This document shows positions 7,520-27,549 of a DNA stretch of 34,678 nt, piece after piece (position 1 is the first letter of the stretch; each line of letters starts with the position of its first letter). Below the pieces are notes generated by a model. That model was not told where the DNA came from, did no database searches, and saw only the letters and a list, made by a program, of their open reading frames with translations. Both the position numbers and the translations under genes were made by a program. Source of the DNA: an uncultured Rhodobiaceae bacterium (GTDB lineage: Bacteria; Pseudomonadota; Alphaproteobacteria; Parvibaculales; Parvibaculaceae); NCBI GenBank assembly GCA_913057645.1, contig CAJXOU010000033.1:1-34678 (forward strand). The letters run 5' to 3'.

Positions 7520-7595
7520 GGGCGGTTAGCTCAGTTGGTAGAGCATCTCGTTTACACCGAGAGGGTCGGCAGTTCGAGCCTGTCACCGCCCACCA
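7520..7595 (+). tRNA. tRNA-Val (anticodon UAC)
   Basis: This 76-base cloverleaf has acceptor stem GGGCGGT paired with ACCGCCC, D arm GCTC/GAGC, anticodon stem TCTCG/CGAGA with loop TTTACAC (anticodon TAC), T arm GGCAG-TTCGAGC-CTGTC (one G-T pair), discriminator A and an encoded CCA. It reads GUA and, through wobble, other valine codons. Confidence 0.97.
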
Positions 7596-7897: not shown

Positions 7898-7974
<77 letters not shown>

Positions 7975-25111: not shown

Positions 25112-25516
25112 ATGCTCGGTCCGCTCAATCACGTCGCCATCGCCGTCCCGGATATCCATGCGGCGGCAGAGACTTACAAGCAGAAGTTCAATGCAAAAGT
25201 CTCCGAGGCCGTGCCCCAGCCGGATCATGGCGTGACCACCGTCTTCGTCGATCTCGGCAACACCAAGATCGAGCTGCTGGAGCCCTTGGGCGAGAACTCG
25301 CCGATTGCCGGCTTCCTGGCGAAAAACCCGAAGGGCGGCATCCATCACATCTGCATCGAGGTCGACGACATCGAGGCCGCCTGCGAGAAGATGAACACCG
25401 AAGGCGTCACCATCACCGGCACCGGCAAGCCCCGCATCGGCGCCCATGGCAAGCCCGTCGTCTTCCTCCACCCGAAGGACCTGAACGGCACGCTGGTCGA
25501 ACTCGAGCAGGCCTGA
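25112..25516 (+). CDS. mce: Methylmalonyl-CoA epimerase
   Basis: This enzyme interconverts the (R) and (S) forms of methylmalonyl-CoA in propionate and branched-chain breakdown. The 134 residues form two VOC modules. Metal ligands fit H7 (LNHVAIAV), a histidine of the GGIHHI pair at 78-79 and the terminal E130 (GTLVELEQ). CAGGGG stands before the ATG at 25112. It lies in the same order relative to rnj as in many alphaproteobacteria, although there is no functional link to nuo. Confidence 0.93.
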   Translation: MLGPLNHVAIAVPDIHAAAETYKQKFNAKVSEAVPQPDHGVTTVFVDLGNTKIELLEPLGENSPIAGFLAKNPKGGIHHICIEVDDIEAACEKMNTEGVTITGTGKPRIGAHGKPVVFLHPKDLNGTLVELEQA

Positions 25517-25524
25517 GAGGGCTC

Positions 25525-25800
25525 ATGGACCCCGTCGCCGGCCTCGCGATCTATTTCATCGTCTGGTGGATCACGCTCTTCGCCGTGCTCCCCTGGGGTG
25601 TCCGCTCGCAGCATGAAACGGGTGACGTCACCCCCGGCACGGAGGTCGGCGCCCCCGTCCGCCCCGCGCTCCTGAAGAAGATGGCCGCGACCACGCTCAT
25701 CGCCGCCGTCATCTGGCTCTTCATCGCCTGGATCCAGATCTACCAGCCGATCCCCTACGACAGCATCCCCTTCATGCCCGACTTCGGCGAGGCCTACTGA
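25525..25800 (+). CDS. DUF1467 family membrane protein
   Basis: This small inner-membrane protein has 91 residues and two hydrophobic helices (about residues 6-24 and 54-73). The segment WWITLFAVLPWGVRSQHE after the first helix and the gap-rich loop with GTEVGAP are typical of DUF1467. The function is unknown. GAGAGGG lies before the ATG and the gene starts eight bases after mce, so it is probably co-transcribed. In many relatives proS follows directly; here 4.2 kb lies between them. Confidence 0.88.
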   Translation: MDPVAGLAIYFIVWWITLFAVLPWGVRSQHETGDVTPGTEVGAPVRPALLKKMAATTLIAAVIWLFIAWIQIYQPIPYDSIPFMPDFGEAY

Positions 25801-25829
25801 GGGCTGAAGAAGCGCACTTTCCCTGATTT

Positions 25830-25931
25830 CGTCATGGCCCGCCCACCTTGATTGTAAAGGAGGGCGGGCCATCCACGTCTTCCTTTAAGGCCGCCAAGAC
25901 GTGGACGGCCCGGACAAGCCGGGCCGTGACG
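25830..25931. repeat. 102-bp compound palindromic intergenic repeat
   Basis: The element begins CGTCATGGCC and ends GGCCGTGACG, so its ends are inverted copies. Inside are three stems: ATGGCCCGCC with GGCGGGCCAT, CCACGTCTT with AAGACGTGG, and ACGGCCCGG with CCGGGCCGT. This resembles palindromic repeats scattered between genes in alphaproteobacterial genomes. It lies just after the DUF1467 stop and may stabilise or end the upstream message. I see no gene in it. Confidence 0.75.
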
Positions 25932-25974
25932 TGAAAGTTGATGCTCCTGAAAATCATCCCCCCGCGCAGCGGAC

Positions 25975-26009
25975 AAAAAAAAGCAAGGTCCGCTTTCGCG
26001 GCCTTGCTT
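25975..26009 (-). terminator. Strong intrinsic terminator, minus strand
   Basis: On the minus strand AAGCAAGGCCGC pairs with GCGG-A-CCTTGCTT, twelve pairs with a single bulged A and a GAAA tetraloop, followed by a T-run down to 25975. It ends the predicted small RNA and would also stop read-through from the NCS2 permease gene. Confidence 0.9.
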
Positions 26010-26116
26010 GCTCTAGTGTTCCCTCGTGTCGCGCCTTCGCAATCCTTTCCGGATCGTCGAAGTCTGCGTTCCCTCCCTAAACTTGGGCTGCGCTTGTGCG
26101 CTTTTTCCCTTTTGTG
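25975..26116 (-). ncRNA. Predicted small RNA, about 140 nt, family not recognised
   Basis: A near-consensus promoter (26123-26151) and a near-perfect terminator (25975-26009) bracket a minus-strand transcript of about 142 bases with no plausible open frame. Besides the terminator it can form two more local hairpins: GCGC-ACAA-GCGC (26090-26101) and an eleven-pair stem with one bulged A and a GGAAA loop (26035-26062). Between the hairpins are single-stranded purine-rich stretches containing GGGAGGGAAC and GAGGGAAC. GGA occurs repeatedly, once in the hairpin loop, which recalls CsrA-titrating RNAs, but this is inference only. It does not fit 6S RNA (no single long bulged rod), SRP RNA (no matching apical motif), tmRNA or RNase P. 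Confidence 0.7.
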
Positions 26117-26122
26117 CGTGGG

Positions 26123-26151
26123 ACTATACGCAGCCTGCGGCGAGGTGTCAC
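26123..26151 (-). promoter_or_regulatory. Promoter of the predicted small RNA
   Basis: On the minus strand GTGACA (26151-26146), a 17-base spacer and TATAGT (26128-26123) differ from the sigma-70 consensus by one base in each element. Transcription would start near 26116. It lies just beyond the end of the NCS2 gene. Confidence 0.75.
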
Positions 26152-26238
26152 GCCCCTTTTTCCCGCGAATGAAATTTTTGCAGCATTATGCGCGCGCCCA
26201 GGCAACTTCCGGACGATGCCGCGTCCCGGATCGGCGTT

Positions 26239-27549
26239 TCATTGCAGGGCGAGCTTGATCGCGAAGGCGGCGGCGATGATCCCGACCGCCCAGTTGAGGT
26301 CCCCGAAGCGCCCGGCCAGCAGCTTGATCGCGGCATAGGAAATCACGCCGAGCCCGATTCCGCTCGCGATCGAGAAGGTGAGGGGAATGGCGAGCGCCGT
26401 CACCACGGCGGGCACCGTCTCCGTCACATCGCCCCAGTCGATGTCGCCAAGCGCGCGCGCCATCAGGCAGGCGATCAGCACCAGCGCGGGCGCCGTCGCA
26501 TAGAGCGGCACCGTATCGGCGAGCGGCGCGAGGAACAGGCTCAGCACGAACAGCAGCGCGACCGTCACCGTCATCAGCCCCGTGCGCCCGCCCGTCTCGA
26601 TCCCCGCCGTGCTCTCGATATAGGCGGTCGTGGTCGACGTGCCGAGCGCGGCGCCGATGATGGTGGCGGAAGAGTCGGCGGTCATGGCTTTCCGGAGCCG
26701 CGGCAGCTTGCCTTCCGCATCCGTCAGCCCCGCGCGTTGTCCGGCGCTCACCAGCGTGCCCGTGGTGTCGAGCAGGTCGACCAGCAGGAACACGAAGACG
26801 ATGGTGACGAAGCCCATTTCGAACGCGCCGCGAATATCGAACTGCAGGAAGGTCGGCGCGAGCGAAGGGGGCATGTCCGCAATCCCTTCCAGCGGTTGCA
26901 GGCCGAGCAGCACCGCCGCCAGTGTCACGCCGAGTATGATCAGCATGATCGCGCCGGGCACGCGCCGGTAATAGAGCGCGACGAGGGCAACGAAGCCCGC
27001 CATCGCCAGCAGCGCGCTCGTGGCTCCGACATCGCCCAGCGTGACGAGCGTTGCCGGATGATCGATGACGATGCCCGCATTCTGCAGGCCGATCATCGCG
27101 AGAAAGAATCCGATGCCCGCGCCGATCCCGTATTTGAGCGAACGCGGGATCGCGTTCACGAGCCATTCGCGCAAGGGCGACAGCGACAGCCCGAGGAACA
27201 GCACGCCCGACGCGAACACGCAGCCCAGCGCGAGCCGCCAGTCGCCGCCGAACTGCGGCACCACCGTATAGGCGAAATAGGCGTTGAGCCCCATCCCCGG
27301 CGCAAGCGCCACGGGATAGTTCGCATAGAGCCCCATGATGAGCGAGCCCGCCGCCGCCGCAAGACAGGTCGCAACGAACACCGCGCCGAAATCCATCCCC
27401 GCCTGCGACAGGATCGCTGGGTTGACGAAGATGATATAGGCCATCGTGAGATAGGTCGTTACCCCTGCCAGTATCTCGGTACGGACGGTCGTCCCGCTGG
27501 CTTTCAGCGCGAACAGACGTTCGAGCAGGTCATCTTTTCTCTCGTTCAC
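26239..27549 (-). CDS. NCS2 family purine permease (AzgA-like)
   Basis: This inner-membrane nucleobase transporter has 436 residues and about twelve hydrophobic segments. It belongs to the adenine/guanine/hypoxanthine branch of NCS2, shown by ALAPGMGLNAYFAYTVV near residue 85 and the SSATIIGAALGTSTTTAYIE segment, where AzgA proteins bind substrate. The exact purine cannot be read. I place the start at GTG 27549, preceded by GGGGAA. A longer frame back to 27636 exists, but its first 29 codons lie in a palindromic repeat and translate to the LDCFVASLLAT peptide that such repeats often encode. The gene is divergent from the next two genes and splits DUF1467 from proS. Confidence 0.92.
   Translation of the reverse strand: MNERKDDLLERLFALKASGTTVRTEILAGVTTYLTMAYIIFVNPAILSQAGMDFGAVFVATCLAAAAGSLIMGLYANYPVALAPGMGLNAYFAYTVVPQFGGDWRLALGCVFASGVLFLGLSLSPLREWLVNAIPRSLKYGIGAGIGFFLAMIGLQNAGIVIDHPATLVTLGDVGATSALLAMAGFVALVALYYRRVPGAIMLIILGVTLAAVLLGLQPLEGIADMPPSLAPTFLQFDIRGAFEMGFVTIVFVFLLVDLLDTTGTLVSAGQRAGLTDAEGKLPRLRKAMTADSSATIIGAALGTSTTTAYIESTAGIETGGRTGLMTVTVALLFVLSLFLAPLADTVPLYATAPALVLIACLMARALGDIDWGDVTETVPAVVTALAIPLTFSIASGIGLGVISYAAIKLLAGRFGDLNWAVGIIAAAFAIKLALQ

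Follow-up and report, generated by a model that had tools for sequence, protein, structure and literature searches.

The window analysed here, 34,678 nucleotides of a contig from an uncultured Rhodobiaceae bacterium, contains on its minus strand a strongly supported gene for a small RNA (25975–26116), which has its own predicted promoter and terminator and is backed by conservation and covariation among relatives. We suggest that this RNA probably serves as a trans-encoded sponge (anti-sRNA) for αR8, which ranks among the most widespread alphaproteobacterial sRNAs, and that it would thereby de-repress the targets of αR8. Sponging of αR8 is in our opinion the most likely function, because the RNA is almost perfectly complementary to αR8. 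Gene structure, strand, conservation, complementarity and trans-covariation were all computed in this work.

The promoter, GTGACA-N17-TATAGT, is located at 26151–26123 on the minus strand (−35 element GTGACA at 26146–26151, −10 element TATAGT at 26123–26128), matches the consensus at 10 of 12 positions and is the sole promoter-like site within 25500–26700, where shuffled sequence would be expected to give 0.2. From a predicted start at about 26116, some seven bases past the −10 element, the transcript would reach a 3′ end in the U-run, giving a length of about 142 nt; the earlier note had put it at 140 bases, while its view of the transcript as an independent RNA is upheld. Folding of the 143-nt RNA yields −52.1 kcal/mol vs −34.4 ± 3.4 kcal/mol for shuffled sequences (z −5.2). 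The terminator stem-loop (26009–25981, minus strand) comprises 12 pairs, arranged as 8 + 4 around a single bulged A and closed by a GAAA tetraloop, and leads into eight T (25975–25982, minus strand; U8 in the RNA). Two-sided changes occur at four of its pairs in relatives, the T-run is kept in homologues, and a simple terminator scan missed the structure, presumably because of the bulged A. Both promoter and twelve-pair, GAAA-capped terminator were thus recovered as the earlier note had described them from the letters.

Between these signals, and all on the minus strand, are the putative anti-αR8 site GCCCAAGTTTAGGGAGGGAACGC (26066–26088), a middle hairpin (26033–26068) that is variable in sequence with its pairing kept, and a second conserved unpaired element, GAGGGAACACTA (26014–26025), of which GAGGGA and AC are invariant within the genus. 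Alignment of relatives shows the hairpins to be conserved, as the note's reading of the RNA predicted, with two-sided changes at three pairs of the five-pair helix in the middle hairpin. The second element, GAGGGAnnAC(U)A, is not kept by the sister genera; it could pair over 8 bases with αR8 GUUUCCUC as a possible second site. No Rfam family reached its gathering score in the gap that holds the sRNA, and none was found for 17 homologous or similar loci. Identity with 6S, SRP, tmRNA or RNase P RNA was rejected for want of an Rfam match, and a small-ORF reading was rejected since no ORF is common to the eight homologues checked.

The sRNA promoter is separate from the upstream neighbour on the same strand, a gene of the xanthine/uracil permease family (PF00860; 26239–27636, minus strand), and lies 88 bases past the permease stop. 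The convergent neighbour encodes a DUF1467 protein (PF07330; 25525–25800, plus strand). Two overlapping strong inverted repeats (25834–25912; arms of 16 and 17 nt, 94%), whose common middle arm could switch partners, lie in the interval from the DUF1467 gene to the terminator of the sRNA. Two tRNA genes are located elsewhere in the window (7520–7592 and 7898–7971, both plus strand).

When 61 genomes were searched at the DNA level, the locus turned up in 26 of the 27 that belong to Parvibaculum and in part of those from sister genera. A covariance model (R1) built from 26 loci recovers it from 39 of the 40 Parvibaculales genomes, among them every genome of four sister genera; the exception, G020, is a fragmentary assembly, 57% complete, which shows the antisense of αR8 only. 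Pattern matches in named genomes, P. indicum and P. sedimenti among them, identify the genus as Parvibaculum. In G013 the homologue occupies 3425866–3426004 of the plus strand. In the four sister genera the parts follow one another in the same order, namely promoter, an A-rich 5′ end containing GGGG, the anti-core, and AGCAAGG...CCTTGCT with T-run; at the 5′ end genus g2 matches least closely. The −35/−10 pair, with a spacing of 17–18 nt, is present in all 38 Parvibaculales loci that have upstream sequence, with GTGACA or GTGACT as the −35 element except in genera g4 (TAGACA) and g5 (TGGACA). The putative independent transcription unit is delimited, by sequence, by a conserved promoter and a conserved terminator. 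No other unpaired part of the RNA is as conserved as the anti-core in the Parvibaculum alignment. Two-sided changes were seen at 7 of 24 consensus pairs, and the covariation score was 0.198 vs 0.122 ± 0.007 for shuffled and at most 0.057 for slid alignments. Tandem duplication of the terminator downstream, with a period of about 46–52 bp, was observed in several homologues (four copies at L012, three at L008, two each at L003, L015, L019, L025 and L029); the window has a single copy.

We also considered whether a divergent αR8/suhB paralogue on the plus strand is the functional gene, the minus-strand signals being secondary or due to an overlapping antisense RNA. A permissive Rfam search returned a suhB (RF00519) match on the plus strand opposite the sRNA, aligned through the core CGUUUCCUCCCUAGACUU, with 21 bits at this locus (cut-off 41), 42 bits in G006 and 30 bits in G015, and the plus strand of several species has a short GCGC hairpin and then T-rich sequence. 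However, the minus strand carries the strong terminator U-run and the only promoter-like site of the region, one that all 38 loci with upstream sequence retain, and it is the folding strand, since the consensus stems contain 46 G-U cells against 5 A-C cells. Moreover, the genome carries a bona fide αR8 gene elsewhere (C19:11891–11964, 78.8 bits), on another contig and adjoining an N-formylglutamate amidohydrolase (FGase) gene (256 bits), which is the canonical place of αR8 (PMC12559287). We therefore judge the plus-strand reading to be very improbable, and take the minus-strand sRNA as the gene. In some Parvibaculum species (L201, L202, L203, L204) there is a second αR8-like gene, altered in the flanks of its core, and in the genome of the window the only second match of this kind is a degenerate one (C1:2907–2980), which has no CUCCC.

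The invariant G/A-rich stretch at 26088–26066 is complementary to the αR8 core: the RNA segment GCCCAAGUUUAGGGAGGGAACGC pairs with GCGUUUCCUCCCUAAACUUGGGC of the αR8 from its own genome over 23 consecutive nucleotides, with one G-U. Matches to CCAAGTTTAGGGAGGGAACG within 3 mismatches numbered only two in the whole genome, the sRNA site itself and the suhB antisense. Cofolding with αR8 brings a gain of −35 kcal/mol vs −13.6 ± 3.6 kcal/mol for 200 shuffled RNAs, and the αR8 core is largely unpaired in its own predicted fold. The earlier note, which could place the RNA in no named family, was correct as far as membership is concerned, and missed that it is a near-perfect antisense of a named family, αR8/suhB/MmgR; its suggestion of regulation by base-pairing gains support from the complementarity and from the trans-covariation described below, both of which name αR8 as the partner.

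One αR8 position within the site varies in the order (UAAACUU or UAGACUU), and among 37 Parvibaculales genomes with both genes the αR8/RNA combinations at that position were A-U 23, G-C 8, G-U 6 and A-C 0 (Fisher 8e-5, kinship ignored). Across families, CUCGGG in αR8 is accompanied by CCCGAG in the RNA and CUUGGG by CCCAAG, the class-wide αR8–RNA counts being U-A 40, C-G 6, U-G 3, U-C 1 and C-A 0 (Fisher 5e-6, kinship again ignored). Within the order the true partners form 671 Watson–Crick pairs, vs a mean of 661 and a maximum of 669 in 20,000 random re-pairings, and a re-pairing test with 17 representatives gave P = 1e-4. Because shared ancestry is uncorrected, these statistics are to be taken as strong indications and not as exact probabilities. 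With kinship thus ignored, the two genes co-vary in trans, a strong indication that αR8–RNA pairing may have been kept by selection. The match could in part stem from an origin of the RNA as an inverted αR8 copy rather than from selection, and other RNAs that contain CUCCC are possible partners as well.

The same conservation pattern bears on the guess of the earlier note that the RNA is a protein sponge of the CsrA/RsmA type, which was based on its repeated GGA. These repeats are indeed seen in unpaired stretches, but the GGA in the hairpin loop, which such sponge RNAs would be expected to conserve, changes freely among homologues (CCGGAAAGG, CCGCAAAGG, CCUCAAGG). The GGGAG that is invariant sits in an equally invariant AAGUYUAGGGAG, and pairing of GGGAGG to CUCCC of αR8 explains this whereas binding of CsrA does not, so that we argue against a CsrA-type sponge and consider it extremely unlikely.

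Considering a potential mechanism of αR8 sponging, an active promoter would give rise to an RNA that starts at about 26116 and ends at 25975. The G/A-rich segment of this RNA, which is predicted to lie partly in a small CCC-AAGUUUA-GGG hairpin, would form up to 23 pairs with the single-stranded anti-Shine–Dalgarno core GCGUUUCCUCCCUAAACUUGGGC of αR8, probably on Hfq. Since the duplex would cover the bases that αR8 uses for mRNA binding, αR8 would be sequestered and might be broken down, and translation of its target mRNAs would resume. By analogy with CrfA of Caulobacter crescentus, the inducing condition may be a shortage of carbon. Alternatively, the RNA may regulate mRNAs itself, its G/A-rich stretch binding CU-rich 5′ UTRs and the αR8 match being secondary; in line with this, two further G/A-rich stretches, GAGGGAnnAC and the 5′ AAAAGGG, fall beyond the limits of the αR8 match. 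Against such direct action, the αR8 match spans 23 nt, far past a CUCCC motif, and co-varies in trans; in addition CrfA was initially interpreted as an mRNA-pairing sRNA, a reading later overturned in favour of sponging (PMC12559287). We thus regard direct mRNA regulation as improbable and retain the sponge of αR8 as the preferred function.

A search of 385 genomes with R1 extended the analysis to the class; many matches were αR8 genes read backwards and were discarded. In nine families outside Parvibaculaceae (f15, f28, f29, f40, f56, f60, f87, f107 and f121), 13 loci have the anti-core together with a U-run terminator of their own, in genomes with a bona fide αR8 elsewhere. The f121 loci have the whole layout in common with Parvibaculum. 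At some of the loci outside f121 a terminator could be read on the other strand too, and the sponge reading is consequently a lead there and not a result. Loci with αR8 itself on the opposite strand (G137, G154, G345, G257, G378 and G342) were left as ambiguous. Three further loci, L112, L114 and L125 (f99, f116), have terminators on both strands, one αR8-like and the opposite one strong and sponge-like, and possibly represent an overlapping sense/antisense pair of αR8. It is conceivable, and we put it forward tentatively, that αR8 sponges occur across the class, being either ancient or repeatedly arisen, perhaps as inverted copies of αR8 that stayed complementary via compensatory changes in trans. 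If so, CrfA would be one outlying case and not the peculiarity of one genus.

Parvibaculum is known for the degradation of surfactants and hydrocarbons, and the present work names for it a short, testable RNA pair and adds a new RNA family that is absent from Rfam, together with its covariance model. In the literature searched, a dedicated αR8 sponge was previously known from one species, and a second, order-wide candidate showing trans-covariation suggests that αR8 commonly has its own antagonist. The predicted partner, αR8 (MmgR), restrains PHB storage in Sinorhizobium and, as SisA, outer-membrane transporters in Caulobacter (PMC12559287), and SuhB restrains a catabolite-repressed pathway in Sphingopyxis granuli (PMC6563040).

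Finally, the RNA can be compared with known systems. The αR8 family itself, Rfam suhB (RF00519), which includes MmgR of Sinorhizobium and SisA-D of Caulobacter (PMC12559287), is the predicted partner, its core being the reverse complement of the core of the RNA. The sRNA differs from this family in its opposite direction of transcription, with the antisense of UUUCCUCCCU, the core that defines αR8, in the predicted transcript; no RF00519 match was obtained on the minus strand, the one predicted to be transcribed. CrfA (CCNA_R0093) has been established, in vitro and in vivo, as a sponge of SisA-D (PMC12559287, Nat Commun 2025); it pairs via residues G49-C63 and lowers SisA, compensatory mutations rescue this effect, its action is Hfq-dependent, and it is induced by carbon starvation (PMC12559287). 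Both RNAs are independent sRNA genes, that of Parvibaculum by prediction, in which a G/A-rich segment is the complement of the αR8 core UUUCCUCCCU, and the protected stretch G49-C63 of CrfA agrees in length and in its terminal bases with GUUUAGGGAGGAAAC, which is how the site reads in several Parvibaculum species. They differ in that the Parvibaculum pairing extends over up to 23 nt through CUAAACUUGGGC, whereas the αR8 siblings of Caulobacter share a 10-mer only; since these siblings differ beyond the 10-mer core, a sponge there need not keep a longer match. A search for crfA in Caulobacter (family f63, genus g298, recognised by a CtrA search and RF01519) with the exact 11-mer AGGGAGGAAAC gave no match other than the antisense strands of the αR8 siblings, and no convincing crfA emerged from a scan of 400 kb where synteny would place the gene. 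R1 at E ≤ 0.001 under stricter filters reached 1 of 299 Caulobacteraceae genomes, weakly (24.6 bits), and since the model barely extends to this family we liken the RNA to CrfA in function, and take common descent as no more than a possibility. Compared from the literature alone, QrrX, SroC, AgvB and 3′ETS-leuZ differ from it in partner, organism and sequence, but share with it the pairing of an RNA with the seed of regulatory sRNAs, and in QrrX, as proposed here, the target is an sRNA family.
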